35,494 nt of DNA from a virus: the IMG/VR virus record IMGVR_UViG_3300042549_009684, positions 1-35,494 of that record; one strand, 5' to 3'. Both the position numbers and the translations under genes were made by a program. This document shows positions 3,527 through 31,842 of this stretch, in pieces. Below the pieces are notes generated by a model that worked only from the letters and a program-made list of their open reading frames with translations, was not told where the DNA came from and made no database searches. Each line of letters begins with the position of its first letter. Position 1 is the first letter of the stretch.

Positions 3527-3693
3527 TATACCATTTCTTCAATTATTCCTATTACTTCTGATAATACTAATACTACTGCTCCTACTCCTAAATTGAACGG
3601 CAGGATAAAATATCCTGCTATTCGAATTCCGGATTTAAGAAAACTAATTTGTTTATGTAGTTTTGGGTCTGGGTGTTTAGAATCTTTGTCCAT
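3526..3693 (-). CDS. Very small membrane protein (55 aa)
   Basis: The frame opens with ATG at 3693-3691 and ends with TAA at 3528-3526. The product begins MDKDSKHPDPKLHKQISFLK, followed by one long hydrophobic helix (about 24-50: IAGYFILPFNLGVGAVVLVL) and an acidic end (IIEEMV). It overlaps the end of folE by 17 bases and its stop overlaps the ATG of the next membrane protein gene. The gene-like overlaps, the single clean transmembrane helix and the lack of any other gene in the gap make it real despite its size. Function unknown; a partner of the 88-residue membrane protein is the natural guess. Confidence 0.72.
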   Translation of the reverse strand: MDKDSKHPDPKLHKQISFLKSGIRIAGYFILPFNLGVGAVVLVLSEVIGIIEEMV

Positions 3694-4312
3694 TTGTAGA
3701 AATTGAGTGTAAAAATTCTTCTCTAATTAAATTATCTTTCTCCATAAACACACCACTAAATTTATTAGTTGTCATTACTGATTCAGGATGTTTAATACCA
3801 CGTAATCCGCAACACATATGTTTTGAGGAAATACTAACTGCTACTGATCTGCAATCCATTTTTTCACTTAAAAATGTATGAATTTGTTGAGTTAATGATT
3901 CTTGCATTTGAGGACGACGAGCAAACCAATCAACAATTCTGTTTAATTTACTTAATCCTACTGCTTTTTCTCCTGGGATGTAACCAATTGTACACCACCC
4001 ATAGAATGGTAAGTTATGATGAGCACACATACTATTTACTCTAATTCCTGATTGAATTACTACTCCATCATAATTATCTTCATTTGGAAATGAAGTAACA
4101 TTAGGTGCTTCAGATAAAGAACCAACAATTAAATCTTTAGTCCAACTTTTAGCTACTCGAAGAGGAGTATCAATTGTTTGAGGATCTTTTTCATAATCAA
4201 AACCTAATGATTTTAAAAAGTTTCCATAATGTTTAGATGCATCCTTAATCATTTTTTCGATTTCTTTAGGAGTGCGGGGCTTGTTTTCGTTTGCTTTGTT
4301 TATATATTCCAT
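3677..4312 (-). CDS. folE: GTP cyclohydrolase I (FolE)
   Basis: It converts GTP to dihydroneopterin triphosphate, the first step of 7-deazaguanine synthesis. The zinc and catalytic motifs are intact: CAHHNLPF (Cys96, His98, His99 counted from the chosen start), GYIPGEKAVGLSKLNR, FARRPQMQESLTQQI, and HMCCGLRG with the remaining Cys ligand. I choose the ATG at 4312 (211 residues). The frame extends to an ATG at 4357, but that start lies inside the end of queE, the extra residues (NKLKNKLKN) look like translated AT-rich leader, and the ATG at 4312 follows an A/T-only leader like other genes here. Its place directly after queE in a queC-queD-queE set argues for a role in DNA modification rather than folate supply. 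Confidence 0.95.
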   Translation of the reverse strand: MEYINKANENKPRTPKEIEKMIKDASKHYGNFLKSLGFDYEKDPQTIDTPLRVAKSWTKDLIVGSLSEAPNVTSFPNEDNYDGVVIQSGIRVNSMCAHHNLPFYGWCTIGYIPGEKAVGLSKLNRIVDWFARRPQMQESLTQQIHTFLSEKMDCRSVAVSISSKHMCCGLRGIKHPESVMTTNKFSGVFMEKDNLIREEFLHSISTNGQRF

Positions 4313-4337
4313 ATTTTTTAATTTATTTTTTAATTTG

Positions 4338-5102
4338 TTATACACCTCTTTTATCATTGTAAGCTACAATGTGATCTCTACCTGTAAAATTATATCCTCG
4401 TTTAATACATTCTTCCATTACATAAGGATAATTAGGTTGTAATTTATCTAAAGTATCTCCTGCAGGCATAACCCAAACCTTGTTTTTAGGTATTTTATGT
4501 ATTTTAATAAACTCTTCTATTTCATCCCATATTTCAGGTTCGTTTCTATCTACTACTGGTTTAAAATGATAATCTAAATGGTAATCAAGCATTTTCTTTA
4601 TTTCATCATGTTTCATTCTAAATTTATTGTGTTGATCGATCATTCTTTGATCTACATCTTTATTTGCTGGTGTTTTAGTTCCTAGTTTAGGTAATGAATT
4701 TTTAAATTTAGGAGATAAAGATATTAAGTCTATTTTGTAATTTGTTTCAATAAAATGACTACCTTCAGTTTCAATAGTAACATACATTCCTCTCATGGTT
4801 TTAGCCATATTAATCAATGTATCAACTAATTCAGGATGCATAGTTGGAGAACCACCTGATATCATTAAGTGGTTGATTTGGGGATTAGCTTCAAATAATT
4901 CTTCAATAGCTTTTAATGTCCAAGTACCTTTTTCAGGATGAATACTTGTATACCAGCTGTCGCACCAACCACCTTCACCAAAATAGCATCTGTGGGTACA
5001 CCCTGTTGTTCTTATTAAAAAGTGAGGATACCCTGCTCTAGATCCCTCTGTTTGAATGCATACATATGCTTCAATTATTGGTTGTATTTTATTATAGTCC
5101 AT
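4338..5102 (-). CDS. queE: 7-carboxy-7-deazaguanine synthase (QueE), radical SAM
   Basis: A radical-SAM enzyme that turns carboxytetrahydropterin into 7-carboxy-7-deazaguanine. The cluster motif is RTTGCTHRCYFGEGGWCDSW: Cys35, Cys39 and Cys47, spaced C-x3-C-x7-C instead of the standard C-x3-C-x2-C. ISGGSPTMHP (81-90) is the GGE-like SAM-binding motif and RAGYPHF (22-28) the substrate loop typical of QueE. Length (254) is slightly above the usual 210-245. It lies between an unknown gene and folE, and its start region is duplicated at 5691-5712. Assignment is secure; the widened cysteine spacing is a known kind of variation in QueE. Confidence 0.94.
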   Translation of the reverse strand: MDYNKIQPIIEAYVCIQTEGSRAGYPHFLIRTTGCTHRCYFGEGGWCDSWYTSIHPEKGTWTLKAIEELFEANPQINHLMISGGSPTMHPELVDTLINMAKTMRGMYVTIETEGSHFIETNYKIDLISLSPKFKNSLPKLGTKTPANKDVDQRMIDQHNKFRMKHDEIKKMLDYHLDYHFKPVVDRNEPEIWDEIEEFIKIHKIPKNKVWVMPAGDTLDKLQPNYPYVMEECIKRGYNFTGRDHIVAYNDKRGV

Positions 5103-5120
5103 ATATATAATTTATTTTAA
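5099..5120. repeat. 22-bp direct repeat, copy 1
   Basis: The stretch CCATATATATAATTTATTTTAA is identical to 5691-5712. This copy holds the start codon and the leader of queE. The two copies bracket the unknown 181-residue gene. Confidence 0.75.
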
Positions 5121-5662
5121 ATTGCTGCAAATCTTATTAAAGATACTATATGGCCTTTTGGCCTGTATTCTTCAGGATTGTCTAGTACCTTTTCTAACAT
5201 ATCACGAATCATTTGTTTATCATCTTCATATGTTCTTACCGGAGCATCTAGGTCTTGAGGAAACTCAGGTGACCAAGTTAAAGTGATACTTTGTTTTGGT
5301 TCAAATGTTTCTGGATTGTATGTTGTGGGTGCAAATACACATCCATCTTTTACTGGCTTATACATTTCTCCCGGTTCGTACATTTTTGGAGTAAATGTTA
5401 CGGCGTACACATATCCTACTTTATGTTTGTAAGTCGGATTGTCTGAGTCTGATATTCTAAGAGACGTTGCAACGAATGGTGTTTTTCCATCTTCTGCGAG
5501 TCCTGAAGGTAATGTCATCCATATAATTTTATCAAACTCAAAATGTTTGATTAGTTCTGCTTCTACTTGAATACGCTGTTCTTCTGTTGAGTTTTTAATG
5601 CTAAAATCCTCCATTGAGTTTCCACATATTGACAATAGTTTTTCTGTTAAATTTGATTTCAT
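5117..5662 (-). CDS. Unknown protein (181 aa) inside the deazaguanine operon
   Basis: I do not recognise the family. It is soluble, acidic, rich in Pro, Tyr and Thr, with a central beta-rich part (WMTLPSG, KVGYVYAVTFTPKMYEPGEM, SITLTWSPEFP) and an amphipathic helix near 145-160 (QMIRDMLEKVL). It has no cysteine pair, radical-SAM, PP-loop, T-fold or methylase motif. It is not QueF: the QueF Cys and E(S/L)KSxK motif are absent. It sits between queD and queE and its stop is 14 bases before the queE start. It could be an accessory enzyme acting on preQ0 or on modified DNA, or an unrelated passenger; the flanking 22-bp repeats fit a later insertion. Confidence 0.75.
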   Translation of the reverse strand: MKSNLTEKLLSICGNSMEDFSIKNSTEEQRIQVEAELIKHFEFDKIIWMTLPSGLAEDGKTPFVATSLRISDSDNPTYKHKVGYVYAVTFTPKMYEPGEMYKPVKDGCVFAPTTYNPETFEPKQSITLTWSPEFPQDLDAPVRTYEDDKQMIRDMLEKVLDNPEEYRPKGHIVSLIRFAAI

Positions 5663-5690
5663 GATTTATTTTTTTATAATGTTATGGTTA

Positions 5691-5712
5691 CCATATATAT
5701 AATTTATTTTAA
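5691..5712. repeat. 22-bp direct repeat, copy 2
   Basis: Identical to 5099-5120. Here the embedded ATG (5694-5692) opens only a six-codon frame (MVTITL, then TAA), so it looks like a stranded copy of the queE start region, 29 bases upstream of the 181-residue gene. Confidence 0.75.
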
Positions 5713-5744
5713 TATCTCCGAATGTGGTTGTTACAACCCAAAAA

Positions 5745-6221
5745 CTATTCTTCATAAATTGAGGAGTTATTATCGTTTTCAAAACATTCTACTTTAATTA
5801 CTTTACATCTACCAGCATCTGTTTTTGCTAGTACTGAGTTGAAATGGTCGAATACTAATTTAGCATTACTTTCAGCTCCCATTTTATCCATTAAATGAAC
5901 TTTAGCTAGACCCATTTGACCTAATTGTTCAAATACATCAGCATATGGATCATCTTTTTGAATTAATGTCGTATGATCCCACATATGATCCATCCATGAT
6001 TTTAAACCATTACCTTTAGGAGCATCTTTAAATCCACCATAATCAACAATCCAATTCATGTCGTCTAATTGTTTATCAATATCTGGTTCGTTAGATGCAA
6101 ACCATACTTTAAATTTTAAAGCATATCCATGAAGTAATTGACAGTGTGAATGTTGAGCTTTCCATTGTCTAATTGCTACTGAATAATTTTCAAATAATTT
6201 TGTTGAAATGTATCTTGCCAT
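5745..6221 (-). CDS. queD: 6-carboxytetrahydropterin synthase (QueD-like, HGY variant)
   Basis: A T-fold enzyme making 6-carboxy-tetrahydropterin from the FolE product. The signature is FENYSVAIRQWKAQHSHCQLLHGYALKF: catalytic Cys27 and His31 keep E. coli QueD spacing, but the second His of the usual HGH zinc motif is Tyr33. Further motifs are NWIVDYGGFK and DHTTLIQKDDP (catalytic His/Asp), and a late Glu in KVIKVECFEN. The RQW..HSHC..HGYAL pattern seems to define a QueD subfamily, in which upstream His24/His26 may complete the zinc site; that is inference. Length 158. It starts 1 base after the thioredoxin stop and is followed by an 82-base gap before the unknown 181-residue gene. Confidence 0.92.
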   Translation of the reverse strand: MARYISTKLFENYSVAIRQWKAQHSHCQLLHGYALKFKVWFASNEPDIDKQLDDMNWIVDYGGFKDAPKGNGLKSWMDHMWDHTTLIQKDDPYADVFEQLGQMGLAKVHLMDKMGAESNAKLVFDHFNSVLAKTDAGRCKVIKVECFENDNNSSIYEE

Positions 6222-6222
6222 T

Positions 6223-6474
6223 TTATCCGTTAATAAAATTTTTCAATTGGGATTCAGTTAATGCTCCACCAGAATATCTTTTAATTTCTTGTCCGTTTTC
6301 TAACATTACTACAGTTGGAATACTTTTTACTTTATATTGTTCAGTAAGACTAACATCATAATCTGTATCTATTGTAGCTACTTGGATTCCTGATTTTACT
6401 ATTTGATCTATAGCTGGTTTCATTGATTGGCATGCTGCACACCAATTTGCTGAGAAATAAATTAATTGTTTCAT
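6223..6474 (-). CDS. Thioredoxin-like protein
   Basis: A compact 83-residue thioredoxin fold: active site WCAAC (Cys12, Cys15), the cis-proline motif KSIPTV (Pro53) and the GGALTESQL segment near the end. It lacks part of the N-terminal strand and helix of E. coli thioredoxin (109 residues). The obvious role is to re-reduce the phage ribonucleotide reductase encoded at 12260-14950, although here it sits between queC and queD, so a role with the deazaguanine enzymes cannot be excluded. Spacing to both neighbours is under 5 bases. Confidence 0.92.
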   Translation of the reverse strand: MKQLIYFSANWCAACQSMKPAIDQIVKSGIQVATIDTDYDVSLTEQYKVKSIPTVVMLENGQEIKRYSGGALTESQLKNFING

Positions 6475-6478
6475 TTGT

Positions 6479-7366
6479 TTATTTATTGTTATGGGTTAAT
6501 AATATTGCTTTAACATGTATTTTTACTTCATCCCATGTTCTGGGAAGTATCTCTCCATTTTTTAAAATTTCAGCATAATTAACAGGATCTTTTTTTCCTA
6601 ATTTAATAAATGCTTCGATTCTTTCTACTGATGATGCTGATTTATAATCTGAATACCAGCTATGTTTTAACCATCCTTGGGGGTCAGGTATTGGGACTAG
6701 GATTGGTTTATAAGATGTATTAGTACGTTTATATACTTCATTAAAATCTAGATTTAAACATTCACAACATGATTCTCCATCTTTTAAAATATCGAATTTA
6801 TCTACTTCTAGATAAGGAGTATAAACAGTTACTCTTTCCGCACCCCAATTTCCTTGTTTAAATGCTTCAAAATCTACATCTCTAAATTCTTGTCTACAAT
6901 CAGGATAAATTGCATGATCACCAGCATGAATACCCATTGCAATAGCACATTCAGTATTATTTTTATCTGCAATTGATAAAGCAACTGCTTGAATAATTGA
7001 ACTAAATATTTTATTACGATTTGGAACAACTGTTTCTTTCATGTTTTCAGATGCATAATGACCTTCAGGTACTTCTGCTCCTCCTTCTACTAGTGTAGAA
7101 TTCAATAATTGAGATAAACCATCTAATTTAATTATTTGATGAGTAACCGGTGGGAAGGCATTTATTAAATGATTAGGGAAAAAATTATTTTGATTTACAT
7201 ATTCTACTAAGTCAGTAGCACATTGTAATTCTATTTTGTGTTTTTGTCCATAATCAAATGATAAAGCTGTTACTTCATAACCATTTGCTAATAAATGGAG
7301 TAGTAATGTTGATGAGTCTAGTCCTCCACTTAGACTTAAGACAGCATGTTTTTGTTTGTTTTTCAT
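6479..7366 (-). CDS. queC: 7-cyano-7-deazaguanine (preQ0) synthase, QueC
   Basis: An ATP-dependent PP-loop enzyme that converts 7-carboxy-7-deazaguanine to preQ0. The PP-loop SGGLDSSTLL lies at residues 13-22, followed by ALSFDYGQKHKIEL, VPNRNKIFSSI (the NRN motif) and GIHAGDHAIYPDCRQEF, all QueC hallmarks. The usual C-terminal C-x8-C-x2-C-x2-C zinc cluster is not visible; instead there is SCCEC near 196-201 and TNTSYKP where TxxCY is usual. The C-terminal SDYKSASSVERIEAFIKLGKKDP block resembles phage-type QueC. Length 295, longer than the bacterial enzyme (about 230). An AT-rich box (7370-7382) immediately precedes the start. Confidence 0.94.
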   Translation of the reverse strand: MKNKQKHAVLSLSGGLDSSTLLLHLLANGYEVTALSFDYGQKHKIELQCATDLVEYVNQNNFFPNHLINAFPPVTHQIIKLDGLSQLLNSTLVEGGAEVPEGHYASENMKETVVPNRNKIFSSIIQAVALSIADKNNTECAIAMGIHAGDHAIYPDCRQEFRDVDFEAFKQGNWGAERVTVYTPYLEVDKFDILKDGESCCECLNLDFNEVYKRTNTSYKPILVPIPDPQGWLKHSWYSDYKSASSVERIEAFIKLGKKDPVNYAEILKNGEILPRTWDEVKIHVKAILLTHNNK

Positions 7367-9181: not shown

Positions 9182-9787
9182 TTAATTTTTATATTTCCAA
9201 ATGTAACCAGAAGAACTAGCATTTCCTCCTTTTCTTAAAGCATTACTTATTGCTGTTGGGTTTCCATTTACTTTTGTAGCTGCTATTTCGATACTAATAT
9301 GTTCATCAATTTGATTACCCGTCATATCATATTGGATTATAGACTTAGCATTTAAATAATTAGGAATGCCTTTTTTAGATTTACTAATATTTAAACAATT
9401 TTCTTTACTTCTTTTTTTTCCTTTCCAATGTGAATCTTTTCGTTTTCCAACATTTAATTTCCCCTTTTCACTAATTAATTTTTTAGTATTTTCATTATGT
9501 GCATCAACTCCTCCTCCTCCAGAGTTTGAATTTAAACCATCTATGTATGAATTATAATATTTAATCCAATATTTTTCTCTATTTGTAAGTAAGTATTCAA
9601 TGTTTTCTATAATTTCAAATATGTGATTTTCAAAACCATATTTTTTAAATGATTGATGTAGTTTAGGTTGTTTAATAATTTTTTTATCATTTTTATAATT
9701 TACCCATCTAGTAGAAATATTTTTTGAACATCCTATATATATTTTTCCTTCTGGGTTTGTAATTTTATAAATTCCTATATTTTCCAC
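9182..9787 (-). CDS. GIY-YIG homing endonuclease (GTG start)
   Basis: The N-terminal GIY-YIG nuclease domain is clear (GIYKITNPEGKIYIG, residues 4-18, then the helix STRWVNY and the Glu in NREKYWIKYYNS). The C-terminal half has a NUMOD3-like SHWKGKKRSKEN and a NUMOD1-like module (KSIIQYDMTGNQIDEHISIEIAATK, ending GYIWKYKN) for DNA binding, as in I-TevI-type and SegA-type enzymes. The only suitable start is GTG at 9787-9785 and it lies inside a hairpin (9784-9814). The gene is free-standing between the four-helix membrane protein and dpdA. Product 201 residues. Confidence 0.93.
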   Translation of the reverse strand: MENIGIYKITNPEGKIYIGCSKNISTRWVNYKNDKKIIKQPKLHQSFKKYGFENHIFEIIENIEYLLTNREKYWIKYYNSYIDGLNSNSGGGGVDAHNENTKKLISEKGKLNVGKRKDSHWKGKKRSKENCLNISKSKKGIPNYLNAKSIIQYDMTGNQIDEHISIEIAATKVNGNPTAISNALRKGGNASSSGYIWKYKN

Positions 9788-11348: not shown

Positions 11349-11512
11349 TTTTTTCTATTTTTAAATAATTTCATGAATTCATCCATTCCTGTTAATAAAT
11401 CATTATATAATTTTTCTGATTTGTTAGAATTTTCTTGTAGGTTTATACCTGCTAACTTTTGCATTTTTCTCTTTTGTTCAATTTCTTGAACTTCTTGTTC
11501 TATTGATTTCAT
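11345..11512 (-). CDS. Very small helical protein (55 aa)
   Basis: The frame runs from ATG 11512-11510 to TGA 11347-11345. The product (MKSIEQEVQEIEQKRKMQKL at the start, MDEFMKLFKNRKK at the end) is highly charged and coiled-coil-like. ATGA overlaps join it both to the HNH gene before it and to the 76-residue gene after it, and it fills an otherwise empty gap, so it is likely real. Function unknown. Confidence 0.65.
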   Translation of the reverse strand: MKSIEQEVQEIEQKRKMQKLAGINLQENSNKSEKLYNDLLTGMDEFMKLFKNRKK

Positions 11513-12210
11513 ATTTTATTACTTTTATTTCTGTTTCCAATTTGATTTATATATCCGAGAGATTCTGCTATTTTTGTTGTTTTAAATAAAGGTTGAGTGT
11601 TTTGATAGTTAAAGGCTTTAAATATATTTTTTTCTATTGTTAAATTAAATTTAGAAATTGGTTTTATATGATCTATTTCCCATATCTTACCCCAGTTATC
11701 CCAAGTCATTTCAGGATAAAAAAGGGATTCTAAATATGTTTTGTATTGTATAAAATCACACCCCAAATATTCTAAAGATGTACTTATTTTGTTTTTAAGA
11801 ATTTTTTTTAATCTATTACAAATATCTGTTGAAATTCTAAGTCTTAATTTATAAGATATATCTTTTTTTACTTTATTATTTCTTCGTGTATAACTTTTTT
11901 TCAATAATATTTCTTTATTCTTACTATTGTAAAGTTTTTGACTTTTATACCCATTGGATTTTTTATAAATATTTTGATATTTATTATAGTTTTCCTTATT
12001 ATTTTTTACATATAATTTTTGTTTTTTAATTATATTTTCTTTATTATTTTCATAATAAATTTTATCATAATTAGTTTTATCTTTATATTTTTTTAAGTAA
12101 ATATTCCTACAATTTTTACATTTAGACTCTACTCCAAATTTTCCCCTTATATCTTTTTGATATTCATTAATATTTTTATTTATATTACATTTTTTACAAA
12201 TTTTTTCCAT
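11509..12210 (-). CDS. HNH endonuclease (free-standing, homing type)
   Basis: Layout matches the HNH gene at 7391-8005: N-terminal zinc ribbon (CKKC near 4-7, CKNC near 30-33), a very long Lys/Asn/Tyr-rich linker, and an HNH core WEIDHIKPISKF followed by YQNTQPLFKTTKIAES. In the second half the usual DNLKKG becomes TKIAES, so the last catalytic Asn may be missing. I choose ATG 12210; the frame continues to 12309, but that part overlaps the end of nrdA and gives a non-conserved N-terminus. It lies directly behind nrdA, a favourite neighbourhood of phage homing genes. Codon use is extremely A/T-biased, which fits independent acquisition. Confidence 0.86.
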   Translation of the reverse strand: MEKICKKCNINKNINEYQKDIRGKFGVESKCKNCRNIYLKKYKDKTNYDKIYYENNKENIIKKQKLYVKNNKENYNKYQNIYKKSNGYKSQKLYNSKNKEILLKKSYTRRNNKVKKDISYKLRLRISTDICNRLKKILKNKISTSLEYLGCDFIQYKTYLESLFYPEMTWDNWGKIWEIDHIKPISKFNLTIEKNIFKAFNYQNTQPLFKTTKIAESLGYINQIGNRNKSNKI

Positions 12211-12233
12211 ATTTAGTATTATTTTAGATCCGA

Positions 12234-12247
12234 TAATAAATATATGG
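12234..12247 (-). promoter_or_regulatory. AT-rich box upstream of the second HNH gene
   Basis: The minus strand reads CCATATATTTATTA in the 49-base gap behind nrdA, 24 bases before ATG 12210. It shares ATATTTAT with the other endonuclease and tail-gene boxes. Confidence 0.2.
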
Positions 12248-12259
12248 AGAATAAATTTT

Positions 12260-13984
12260 TTACCCCTGACATGAAAGGCATTCTGAAGTTCTTTGTAAGT
12301 TATCACCACGAAGAATTGATTCAGTACGAAGATAATATAAACACTTAATACCTAATTTATGAGCTTCTTTATGTACTTGAGATATCCATTTTGGAGAATC
12401 ATCAGGCGAGAAACATAAATTTAATGATATTGCTTGGTCAACATATTTTTGACGAATAGCATTTTGACGAACGATTTCTAATTGATTAATTTCTTTAAAT
12501 GTTAAGAATGTTTCTTTTTCTTCATCAGTTAAAACATAGTCAGGTAAACCTAAAATCGATCCTTGATCTTTTAAAATTTGATCCCAAATACTATCAATGT
12601 TGTATCCTTTACTTTCTAATAATTCTTCTAATATTTTGTTTCGTTTAATAAAAACACCTTTTGCGGTTTTTAAATTGTAAACATTAGCTGGGATTGGTTC
12701 AATTGATGGAGAAACACCTCCTGAAATATGAGCATTTGATACTGTTGGAGCAGGTGCTAAATGATGTGTATGTCTTAACCCTGTACCTTTACACCATTCT
12801 GGTTCGCCATATAATTCAGCTTGTGCTTTAGATGCTTTTAATGTTTCTTTTTCTATAAAATCAAAAATTAATCTTGTATGAGCATTTGCTTGAATACCTA
12901 CAAATGGGATACCTTTTGCTTGTAAAAACGTATGCCATCCTAAAACACCTAATCCAATTGCTCTACCTTTAGTAGCTGAACGAACTGTGTTTTCAAAAAA
13001 TTTAATATTTTTAGCTCTGTCAATAAATTCTTGTAATACACCTTCTAAAAACCAAGTTGATAGTTCAGGTAAAGTCATTCCGTTTTCGAATTTATATTCT
13101 TTCCATTCATCCCAACGAGCTAAATTTAGTGAAGATAAACAACAAATAAATGAATGTAATTCGTCTGTGTATAAAGCAATTTCAGTACAAATGTTAGTCA
13201 TTGTAACTTGTAAATTGTTTTTCTTATACGCTTCAGGATTAGCATTATTAATGTTGTCTTCAAACATGATATATGGTTGACCTGTTTCTAAACGTGTTTT
13301 AAGAATTTCACCCCATAATTTTTGTGCTTTAGGATCTTTATTCTCTAACTTATCCATCCATTTATCATCAATAACAACACATTGATTTAAATTTAAACAT
13401 TGACGATTAACATCTCCTTTAGGACGACGAATCATTAAAAATTCTTCAATATCTGGGTGATTAATACTTAAATTTACTGATGCTGCTCCTCTACGTACTG
13501 AACCTTGATTAGTAGCTAAGATAGTTGAGTCATAGATTTTAGCCCAAGGTACAACACCTTCTGATATACCATTATCTTTAATATTTTTACCTCTACCTCT
13601 GATTCTTGATAAACCAATTCCTACTCCACCACCTTGAGACGATAATCTCATTAATTCAGAGTTTGCATCAGCAATTCCTTCAATTGAATCACCTACATCA
13701 ATTCCAAAACATGAAATAGGCATTCCTCTTTCTGTTCCCATATTTGATAGAACAGGAGATGCAGGACATAACCAATTTTTAACTATTGCGTCATAGAAAA
13801 ATGGTTGTAAATCTTTACGTTTTAATCTTCGAGCAGCTGCTTTACTAATTCTTTTATATGCATCAAATACATTTTCGTCTGATAGGAGATATCCTTTAGA
13901 TACCATATCTACTCCAATTTGATCAAACCATAATGGGTAATCTTTTCCTTTAATCCATGTACTTGTGTCTACGTGTATACTCAT
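12260..13984 (-). CDS. nrdA: Ribonucleoside-diphosphate reductase, large subunit (class I)
   Basis: It reduces ribonucleotides to deoxyribonucleotides together with NrdB. Visible landmarks: the first redox Cys92 (PISCFGIDVGDSIEGI), QGGGVGIGLSRIRGRG, the active-site N-x-C-x-E as TNICTEI (Asn264, Cys266, Glu268), the partner Cys in FICCLSSLNL (281/282), the PSIEPIPANVYNLK block, the tyrosine pair in LYYLRTES for radical transfer, and the C-terminal CLSC pair re-reduced by thioredoxin. At 574 residues it is much shorter than E. coli NrdA (761): the N-terminal ATP-cone is missing and other segments are trimmed, so dATP inhibition through that cone is not expected. nrdB lies directly upstream. Confidence 0.95.
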   Translation of the reverse strand: MSIHVDTSTWIKGKDYPLWFDQIGVDMVSKGYLLSDENVFDAYKRISKAAARRLKRKDLQPFFYDAIVKNWLCPASPVLSNMGTERGMPISCFGIDVGDSIEGIADANSELMRLSSQGGGVGIGLSRIRGRGKNIKDNGISEGVVPWAKIYDSTILATNQGSVRRGAASVNLSINHPDIEEFLMIRRPKGDVNRQCLNLNQCVVIDDKWMDKLENKDPKAQKLWGEILKTRLETGQPYIMFEDNINNANPEAYKKNNLQVTMTNICTEIALYTDELHSFICCLSSLNLARWDEWKEYKFENGMTLPELSTWFLEGVLQEFIDRAKNIKFFENTVRSATKGRAIGLGVLGWHTFLQAKGIPFVGIQANAHTRLIFDFIEKETLKASKAQAELYGEPEWCKGTGLRHTHHLAPAPTVSNAHISGGVSPSIEPIPANVYNLKTAKGVFIKRNKILEELLESKGYNIDSIWDQILKDQGSILGLPDYVLTDEEKETFLTFKEINQLEIVRQNAIRQKYVDQAISLNLCFSPDDSPKWISQVHKEAHKLGIKCLYYLRTESILRGDNLQRTSECLSCQG

Positions 13985-30189: not shown

Positions 30190-30489
30190 TTATTTTTTAG
30201 TTGAAGTAGGAGTATACGAGACTGGTTTTTTAGCAGCAGTTTTTACAAAATTAGGTACTTGGGTTTTAGCAGCTGTTGCAGTTTCACCAGATTTATTAGT
30301 CCATGATTCTTCAGCTTCTTCTGCTTGTGTATTTTGGTTTTTGTAGTATTCTTTCATTTTGTTAAACGTGAATAAACGTAACCAAATAGGCATATTGTAA
30401 ACAGTTTCCCAATCGTATCCACCATTACCGTGGAATATTATTTCATGAATTGTATTAAAAAGTGATAATCTATATTCCGGAGTCAGGCC
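30190..30489 (-). CDS. Frameshift extension of the tail assembly protein (99 aa)
   Basis: This frame opens behind a stop near 30516 and has no ATG, GTG or TTG before the Met at 30393, yet its upstream part reads as good protein: GLTPEYRLSLFNTIHEIIFH, then GNGGYDWETVYNMPIWLRLF, continuing into KMKEYYKNQ and an Ala/Lys/Thr-rich tail. It therefore seems to be reached by a +1 shift from the gp26-like gene at the T7 run, giving a fusion of 256 + 99 = 355 residues. Starting at the Met at 30393 (67 residues) is possible but lacks an AT-rich leader and leaves conserved-looking sequence untranslated. The layout equals the G/GT chaperone pair between tube and tape measure of lambda. Confidence 0.72.
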   Translation of the reverse strand, partial: GLTPEYRLSLFNTIHEIIFHGNGGYDWETVYNMPIWLRLFTFNKMKEYYKNQNTQAEEAEESWTNKSGETATAAKTQVPNFVKTAAKKPVSYTPTSTKK

Positions 30490-31258
30490 AAAAAAAGCTA
30501 ATCCCGATTGGGATATTTACGCCCTCCTCAACGTAATCTTCACTTACATATGTAAATTCTAATTTTATTCCTGGGATTATTGATGAGATATGTTCTCTTA
30601 ATGCTCGAGAATCTTTAGCTAAAAGATAGTTATCTACAAATTCTCTAATTGTTTTTAAGCTTTTATCTCCATTAACTGAAGTAATAATATGTTTCCATCT
30701 AGTAGATACTTCAGGATTTGCTTTAGGATCTATTTTTTTTAAACCTTGTAAATCTTGGTCGATTTTTTTCTCATCTCCATGAGTTAAAAGTTTAAAAGTT
30801 ATTTGGTTTTTAGTATGAGGTAATGTAAATGAAAATTCATTAGTGTGAGGAGTTTTAATTAAACTTTCATCTAAATGTTTTTCTTCTAATGTAGTTAAGT
30901 CAACTATAACATCTTCTGAAATTCCTGTTGAATTTGGAGCATATTTAAATTTATAATCTTTACCATACCCTAATATTCTAGATGCTATCATTACAGCATC
31001 TTTATCACATATGAGTAAATCATCATAATTGATTTTAGATATAATCATTGATTGTAATAATTTATCAATTACTGTACCTTGTTTAATGTAATTTTGGTTT
31101 GTTAAGATATCTTCTTCTTTAGCAGTCATATACTTCATTTCAATTCTTCCTGAAGCTAAAGGACTGTCTGCTGGGTAAAGTAAACCTTTTGAAGGTAATT
31201 CAATTGTTTCTGTTGGAAAATTAAATTTGGCTGTTTCTTGAGTTGTAACTGGTTCCAT
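30470..31258 (-). CDS. Baseplate/tail assembly protein, gp26-like (probable chaperone)
   Basis: Resembles the T4 gp26 family (T4 baseplate protein): FNFPTETIELPSKGLLYPADSPL, MKYMTAKEEDILTNQNYIKQG and TVIDKLLQSMI at the N-terminus, then NEFSFTLPHTKNQITFKLLTHGDEK. It ends in VNIPIGISFFWPDSGI at a TAG (30472-30470). Its position between the tail tube and tape measure is that of tail assembly chaperones, which coat the tape measure before tube polymerisation. Shortly before its stop lies a T7 run in the codons TTT TTT TGG, where a fraction of ribosomes may shift into the frame at 30190-30489. Length 262 (T4 gp26: about 208). Confidence 0.82.
   Translation of the reverse strand: MEPVTTQETAKFNFPTETIELPSKGLLYPADSPLASGRIEMKYMTAKEEDILTNQNYIKQGTVIDKLLQSMIISKINYDDLLICDKDAVMIASRILGYGKDYKFKYAPNSTGISEDVIVDLTTLEEKHLDESLIKTPHTNEFSFTLPHTKNQITFKLLTHGDEKKIDQDLQGLKKIDPKANPEVSTRWKHIITSVNGDKSLKTIREFVDNYLLAKDSRALREHISSIIPGIKLEFTYVSEDYVEEGVNIPIGISFFWPDSGI
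30488..30514 (-). promoter_or_regulatory. Candidate +1 frameshift site with upstream hairpin
   Basis: The minus strand carries AGC TTT TTT TGG (30499-30488). If the Phe-tRNA on TTT slips one base forward (TTT-T), reading continues GGC CTG ACT CCG in the extension frame. A perfect 5-bp hairpin ATCCC-AATC-GGGAT (30514-30501) ends 4 bases before the T-run. Slip direction is deduced from frames; the hairpin's role is guesswork. Confidence 0.55.
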
Positions 31259-31353: not shown

Positions 31354-31842
31354 TTAATAATTTAAGATACAGTAATCCATACCTAAATTAATAGATAATT
31401 CTTGAGCCGCAGCATCTTGATCCCAATCATAATCACCAAAGCCTGCAGATTTAATAAATGCACCTTTAATAATCCATTCAGAAACAACATCACCTACTGG
31501 GCCTAATACGTTAATAGTAATATCTTTTTTATAAAAATCAGAATAACCATCACGGCCAGTTACAGATTCATGATGTAAACGAACCCATTCCATTGTTGCT
31601 TGAGCACCAGATGGAGTGATTGGATCGAATAATGTCATTTCAATGTCGTCCCATGCTGCTCTACCTTTAATTTTGCGATAAACGTTAATATGGTTTAATT
31701 TAATTTCTTCCATTTTTACGCTTACTGCACCTATTTTCTTTATCATGTAAGAAGGAAATCCATCTACATACATAATAAAACGATTTTTTACCTTTGGTTC
31801 AAATGCTGTAAAAAATATTTCGTTTGGTGATAATACTGCCAT
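31354..31842 (-). CDS. Tail tube protein (gp19-like)
   Basis: Polymerises into the inner tube of the contractile tail. The 162-residue length matches T4 gp19 (163), and the family pattern is clear: FEPKVKNRFIMYVDGFPSYM at 14-33, KLNHINVYRKIKGRAAWDDIEMTLFDPI at 48-75, WVRLHHESVTGRDGYSDFYKKDI and a C-terminal WDQDAAAQELSINLGMDYCILNY. It lies directly behind the sheath gene, separated by a terminator and a late-type box, so it is a separately controlled, highly expressed unit. Confidence 0.94.
   Translation of the reverse strand: MAVLSPNEIFFTAFEPKVKNRFIMYVDGFPSYMIKKIGAVSVKMEEIKLNHINVYRKIKGRAAWDDIEMTLFDPITPSGAQATMEWVRLHHESVTGRDGYSDFYKKDITINVLGPVGDVVSEWIIKGAFIKSAGFGDYDWDQDAAAQELSINLGMDYCILNY

Follow-up and report, generated by a model that had tools for sequence, protein, structure and literature searches.

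A probable +1 frameshift in a gp26-type tail assembly chaperone gene of T4-like phages, with a homologous extension reached by -1 in the sister branch

A close described counterpart of the locus presented here is the G/GT pair of phage lambda, which lies between the tail tube and tape measure genes and provides a tail assembly chaperone in a short and a frameshift-extended form by means of a -1 shift; a 2016 review found this G-T frameshift to be widely conserved, with T4 being the exception (PMC5009743). The T4-like tail assembly chaperones were identified as gp26 and gp51 by Vladimirov et al. 2022, as cited in passages of PMC10885494 and PMC12846349. Citing the same work, the passage in PMC10885494 describes some T4-like phages as having a short gene and a long fused gene, while that in PMC12846349 credits it with the description of -1 signals of the poly-T type in TAC-N genes of T4-like phages. 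The role of gp26 and gp51 as T4 tail chaperones is thus prior art, and the remark in a sequence-only reading of the present locus, that frameshifting of this kind was not known to be described for gp26-type proteins, went too far in view of what these passages credit to Vladimirov et al. In the literature searched, Vladimirov et al. 2022 itself lying outside it, no +1 version, direction switch or distant purine element was found, which is not proof that these are unpublished.

Forward shifts have been proposed for the myovirus chaperone genes of haloviruses, namely a probable +1 case in HSTV-2 (PMC5009743) and a +1 shift at TTT-CGC in the HF1-group viruses (PMC7230728). These are archaeal viruses, and they are likened to the present locus by the proposed shift. 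In addition, a passage of PMC7230728 cites UUU_CGN sites for +1 shifting in influenza A virus (UCC_UUU_CGU) and the amalgaviruses, in which the forward slip occurs at UUU as is proposed here. The Streptococcus phage GXN1 examined below has exactly TTT CGT, although the sites cited in that passage belong to eukaryotic hosts and most of the sites reported here read TTT TTT TGG.

The locus and its relatives

The window, i.e. the whole stretch of 35,494 nucleotides analysed (IMG/VR record IMGVR_UViG_3300042549_009684), carries its tail tube, chaperone and tape measure genes in this order, and the same synteny is found in the relatives, placing the chaperone gene where a G/GT-type gene is expected (Table 1). 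The likeness to lambda is one of position, of a short and an extended form, and of logic; lambda shifts by -1, whereas the gene of the window would shift by +1 and has a gp26-type N-domain of about 255 aa. Family searches with the tape measure candidate returned no match; in the Flavobacterium phage immuto, the annotation 'tail tape measure protein' is given to the gene in the corresponding position.

The zero frame of the chaperone gene ends with AGC TTT TTT TGG CCT GAC TCC GGA ATA TAG, in which the T-run consists of 7 T (30496-30490). It had been pointed out earlier that this frame stops soon after the run, which is correct, although the TAG begins at 18 nt past the last T and not 19 bases later. 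The +1 frame stays open between 30516 and a stop ending at 30190, its first ATG, GTG or TTG being the ATG at 30393, so that the absence of a start codon between 30516 and this Met is confirmed. From the T-run onwards, the +1 frame reads FFGLTPEYRLSLFNTIHEIIFHGNGGYDWETVYNMPIWLRLF, and the skipping of one base would yield 355 residues, joined across F256-G257. Annotation of the genomes examined has either overlooked the extension or mis-called it.

Table 1. Positions of the chaperone locus, its neighbours and the elements near the slip site within the window
Feature	Coordinates	Strand	Remarks
gp26-like tail assembly chaperone, short form (TAC-N-like), zero frame, 262 aa	30470..31258, stop included	-	T4_baseplate family; model pLDDT 94
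Putative slip site TTT TTT TGG	30488..30496	-	Shift would occur at one of the two Phe codons
+1-frame extension, 99 codons and stop	30190..30489	-	Modelled as a helical hairpin; corresponds to the T4 gp51 C-tail
Predicted frameshift fusion (TAC-NC-like), 355 aa	30190..31258	-	
Tail tube protein, gp19-like	31354..31842	-	Upstream neighbour of the chaperone gene
Probable tape measure protein, 923 aa	27381..30152	-	By position and length; starts 37 nt downstream of the extension
GAGGAGG, Shine-Dalgarno-like purine element	30523..30529	-	26 nt before the T-run
5-bp hairpin ATCCC-AATC-GGGAT	30501..30514	-	Absent from 58/83 near relatives

Several other genes of the window were observed in passing. 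Genes for GTP cyclohydrolase I, a radical SAM protein, a 6-pyruvoyl tetrahydropterin synthase-type protein and QueC are clustered at 3677-7366 and likely represent a 7-deazaguanine (preQ0) pathway, possibly serving DNA modification. A GIY-YIG domain protein (PF01541) encoded at 9182-9787 is probably a homing endonuclease, and an HNH endonuclease-like frame recognised by eye at 11509-12309, with no Pfam match, overlaps the 3' end of an apparent ribonucleotide reductase large-subunit gene.

Relatives of the chaperone gene were collected in two sets. Set 1 consists of 80 loci from a scan of viral contigs, at 55-65% identity, together with 7 isolates (identity down to 22%); set 2, from a scan with the Microcystis phage orthologue, consists of 78 usable loci, one more ending before the site. 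Scans with SP-15 and with the giant-phage protein gave one or no further loci. The 165 relatives, which share 22-65% identity with the window, include phages of Flavobacterium, Microcystis, Listeria, Bacillus, Streptococcus and Rhodothermus as well as giant phages. Together with the window they make up 166 tallied sites, which do not amount to 166 independent observations as some loci are near-copies.

Two coding frames meeting at a conserved slippery site

The expectation that the T-run and both frames would be conserved among relatives was borne out: the site and the open +1 frame are kept in 88/88 loci of set 1 (the window, 80 contigs and 7 isolates) and in 78/78 of set 2, and all 165 relatives have the site at the same pair of codons. 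The site is TTTTTTTGGC in 143 of the 166, while those of set 2 comprise 75 Phe-Phe pairs and 3 instances of CTT TTT TGG. Seven bacteria-binned contigs display the same arrangement, five of which are labelled as Flavobacteriales or as a genus or family within this order. Judged across these genomes, the joint conservation of site and open frame is not a product of chance. A T-run is a place where sequencing indels arise, and an indel in the homopolymer of a gene that truly has a single frame would produce the same picture; nonetheless, all isolate genomes and metagenome contigs of unrelated studies agree, including at sites lacking a long run, and no in-frame fusion, which the sequence-only reading had named as a sign of such an error, was encountered among the relatives examined in the +1 branch. 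A sequencing indel is thereby considered refuted.

The extension behaves as a coding region. In set 1 its pN/pS is 0.56 overall and 0.39 over the first 25 codons, as opposed to 1.0 and 1.26 in the other frames, these being raw proportions with pS near saturation (about 0.62-0.67), such that the frames should be judged only against each other. These first 25 codons precede the usual first start codon; by this contrast, purifying selection acts on the part of the extension that has no start codon, which upholds the earlier impression that the +1 frame reads as protein from the T-run on and that the residues between the run and the first Met are conserved.

Annotators have called the extension as a separate gene, in the form of a 36-aa ORF in immuto and of an overlapping ORF in Mel-JY01, and a gene with its own start, or reinitiation after the TAG, would account for such calls. 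Against it, the first 25-35 codons are conserved yet devoid of a start codon in most loci: 109 of 153 loci carry no start codon, the presence of which had been proposed as a decisive objection to frameshifting, on the way from the slip site to a conserved GG[YF] motif, and two near loci have no ATG anywhere in the extension. Independent initiation is consequently given hardly any weight in comparison with a shift between the frames.

The place of this shift is confined by stop codons on either side. In 23/163 loci a +1-frame stop is located just before the T-run, reaching to 2 nt before it, and the zero-frame stop is found at least 15 nt after the first T of the run; with stops in both frames, the switch must occur in or just after the T-run. 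Among the 83 near loci, the codons following the site are almost fixed (CCT in 81/83, and GAC in 70/70 Asp cases, as against upstream of the site, where GAT is four times commoner than GAC for Asp), a near-fixation attributed to dual coding. Comparison of the loci shows that two overlapping conserved coding frames join at a conserved slippery site, and the comparative support for a programmed frameshift is strong.

Direction of the shift and the -1 branch

At all 166 sites the cognate tRNA-Phe could re-pair after a +1 slip, in support of the original proposal that such a slip on the T-run gives products of 262 and 355 residues. The same frame would also be entered by slipping back two bases (-2), as phage Mu does, with one extra Phe (SFFFGLT), and cognate re-pairing two bases back is indeed possible at 157/166 sites. 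The other nine fit +1 but not -2; they come from the near set as well as from a giant phage and a Streptococcus phage, and include immuto (TTT CTT TGG), giant phage LR756508 (TTT CTA TTC) and Streptococcus phage GXN1 (TTC TTT CGT), which makes a -2 shift unlikely. Alternatively, RNA polymerase could slip on the T-run, which has at least 7 T in 152/166 sites, to produce some mRNAs with one U fewer or two more that would then be read straight through. The fusion is nevertheless kept at the same nine sites, which are without any run of 6 T, and 7 T is short in comparison with known bacterial slippage sites, so that transcriptional slippage appears somewhat less likely still than the -2 shift. As the nine +1-only sites also lack a 6-T run, a ribosomal +1 shift is the simplest single explanation, with a -2 shift or transcriptional slippage keeping a low probability at the 7-T sites. 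It is very likely, on the whole, that the gene provides two forms of a tail assembly chaperone of the lambda G/GT type through a +1 slip, and that a homologous extension is reached by -1 in the cyanophage/T4 branch.

The N-domain is placed with the T4 gp26/gp51 family by several profile matches. PF12322 (T4_baseplate) matches the window protein with an E-value of 1e-4, 2 bits under the curated cut-off, and the SP-15 orthologue with 1.5e-28; phrog_150 is matched at 6e-10, and comparison of the profile of the window-family N-domain with that of the T4 gp26/gp51 family gives 8e-7. The near fusion and the SP-15/LIS04/GXN1/RM378 fusion align over their whole length at 8e-32. In T4 itself, the T4_baseplate domain extends over residues 1-206 of the 208 that make up gp26 and over residues 1-201 of the 249 of gp51, and gp51 can therefore be described as a gp26-type domain with a tail. 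Vladimirov et al. 2022 reportedly regarded genes 26 and 51 as the two T4 chaperone genes, and the T4_baseplate domain match obtained here is the reason for treating them as this pair.

A link between the extension and T4 gp51, which it had been suggested should be sought, was found by profile comparison with gp51 and the -1 tails (E 6e-5, a modest value), significance being reached only with a profile of ten tails and not with the single T4 gp51 tail. The family phrog_634 is matched by 6 of 59 extensions (best E 0.012) and also by residues 147-246 of T4 gp51, and by these matches the long form would carry the gp51 C-tail. T4 thus has an N-domain homologous to that of the window and a gp51 tail corresponding to the extension, but holds them in two separate genes instead of one gene with a shift. 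As a separate observation, DUF6760 (PF20546) matches 17/59 extensions (best E 3e-5; alignment over window 30193-30489), and a chaperone extension is a possible function for this family.

The fusion was folded as two separate parts, each from the window's own frame, the extension model being a helical hairpin whose end is flexible (pLDDT 78). The best PDB match of the N-domain model is the HK97 tail assembly chaperone 2ob9 (Z 5.3 over 85 residues, rmsd 6.8, the next match having Z 3.3; Foldseek E 0.9), a match that is weak in absolute terms and when taken alone, in which the expected protein nonetheless ranks first. Searches of PDB sequences with both parts found nothing, and a fold search of a viral library with the extension alone gave nothing significant.

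In the cyanophage S-RIM8, Aeromonas phage 65.2 and Nitratidesulfovibrio phage SRB7757, gp26 ends with ..T TTT TTC.. and the tail follows in the -1 frame, as it does in Pseudomonas phage Cygsa01 at a divergent site. The annotation of S-RIM8 gives this tail as an ORF of its own, 45 aa long and named 'baseplate hub assembly catalyst'. A scan yielded 80 further cyanophage-type loci, in 80/80 of which TTTTTTC was mapped in the -1 phase; their -1 frame is open to about +185 whereas the +1 frame closes at about +22, and the tail motif lies in the -1 frame in 67/80. These sequences suggest that the -1 branch reaches a homologous extension at the same Phe-Phe pair. The cyanophage and Aeromonas 65.2-type gp26 thus share gene family, Phe-Phe pair and a homologous tail with the window but differ in using T TTT TTC with a -1 shift, and in having a Shine-Dalgarno-like element (AGGG/GGGA) at -18..-4, a classical distance, in 70/80 loci against 26.5 expected. 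In an unrooted tree, 24/24 rows of the +1 type fall on one side of a branch with 100/100 support, and the -1 rows together with the T4 split genes fall on the other.

Upstream purine element and proposed mechanism

GGAGG is present at -36..-25 in 57/83 loci of set 1, compared with 2.2 +/- 1.4 under synonymous shuffling; elsewhere in the last 190 nt, windows free of overlap with this interval show no enrichment. In set 2, AGGAG is found at the same place in 40/75 loci against 3.0 expected, and GAGGAGG stands at an identical offset in the giant phage. The encoded residues differ (R-R-E in set 2, E-E-G in set 1), and the enrichment of AGGAG/GGAGG is, by these comparisons, a nucleotide-level signal. 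A role of the element in starting translation of an internal gene was also considered; 53 of its 67 carriers have no ATG, GTG or TTG 3-12 nt downstream and the remaining cases are mixed in frame and codon, making initiation there unlikely.

Classical stimulators of the Shine-Dalgarno type act at 3-14 nt from the slip site, and the present element, at about 26 nt, is well outside this spacing. In prfB (RF2), the A site holds a stop codon during an autoregulatory +1 frameshift, and a Shine-Dalgarno-like element lies 3 nt upstream; the slip proposed for the window is likewise a forward one of the CUU/UUU type, but its A-site codon is a sense codon and its enriched element is 26 nt upstream, setting it apart from the prfB type. 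Bacteroidota, which are among the hosts of the +1-branch phages, make little use of Shine-Dalgarno-like elements for initiation. The hairpin immediately upstream of the T-run, suggested earlier as a stimulator, does exist in the window but is unlikely to act as such given its absence from most near relatives. A search for conserved RNA structure with RNAalifold gave 0 kcal/mol in 5/5 windows, and single-sequence z-scores were weak. The combined proposal, that one orthologous chaperone gene has switched its shift direction (+1 versus -1) at the same Phe-Phe codons and that the +1 branch uses AGGAG/GGAGG about 26 nt upstream as a new stimulator, is put forward tentatively, with rather more doubt than confidence.

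In the mechanism envisaged, most ribosomes would stop at the TAG and release the 262-aa short form, while a fraction with tRNA-Phe on UUU would slip one base forward onto UUU or UUC prior to the reading of the next codon, mostly UGG, and continue to the 355-aa fusion. By analogy with lambda, the N-domain common to both forms is predicted to bind and coat the tape measure protein and the extension to recruit tube subunits. The window branch would make the two forms by +1 and the cyanophage/T4 branch by -1, with T4 itself relying on the separate genes 26 and 51.

A large T4-like branch would thus keep the G-T shift, in a direction opposite to that of its sister branch, and the purine element ahead of the slip site might represent a frameshift stimulator of a new type. 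With the split genes 26 and 51 of T4 falling on the -1 side, the two chaperone forms would be made in three ways within one family, which renders the evolution of shift direction directly testable.
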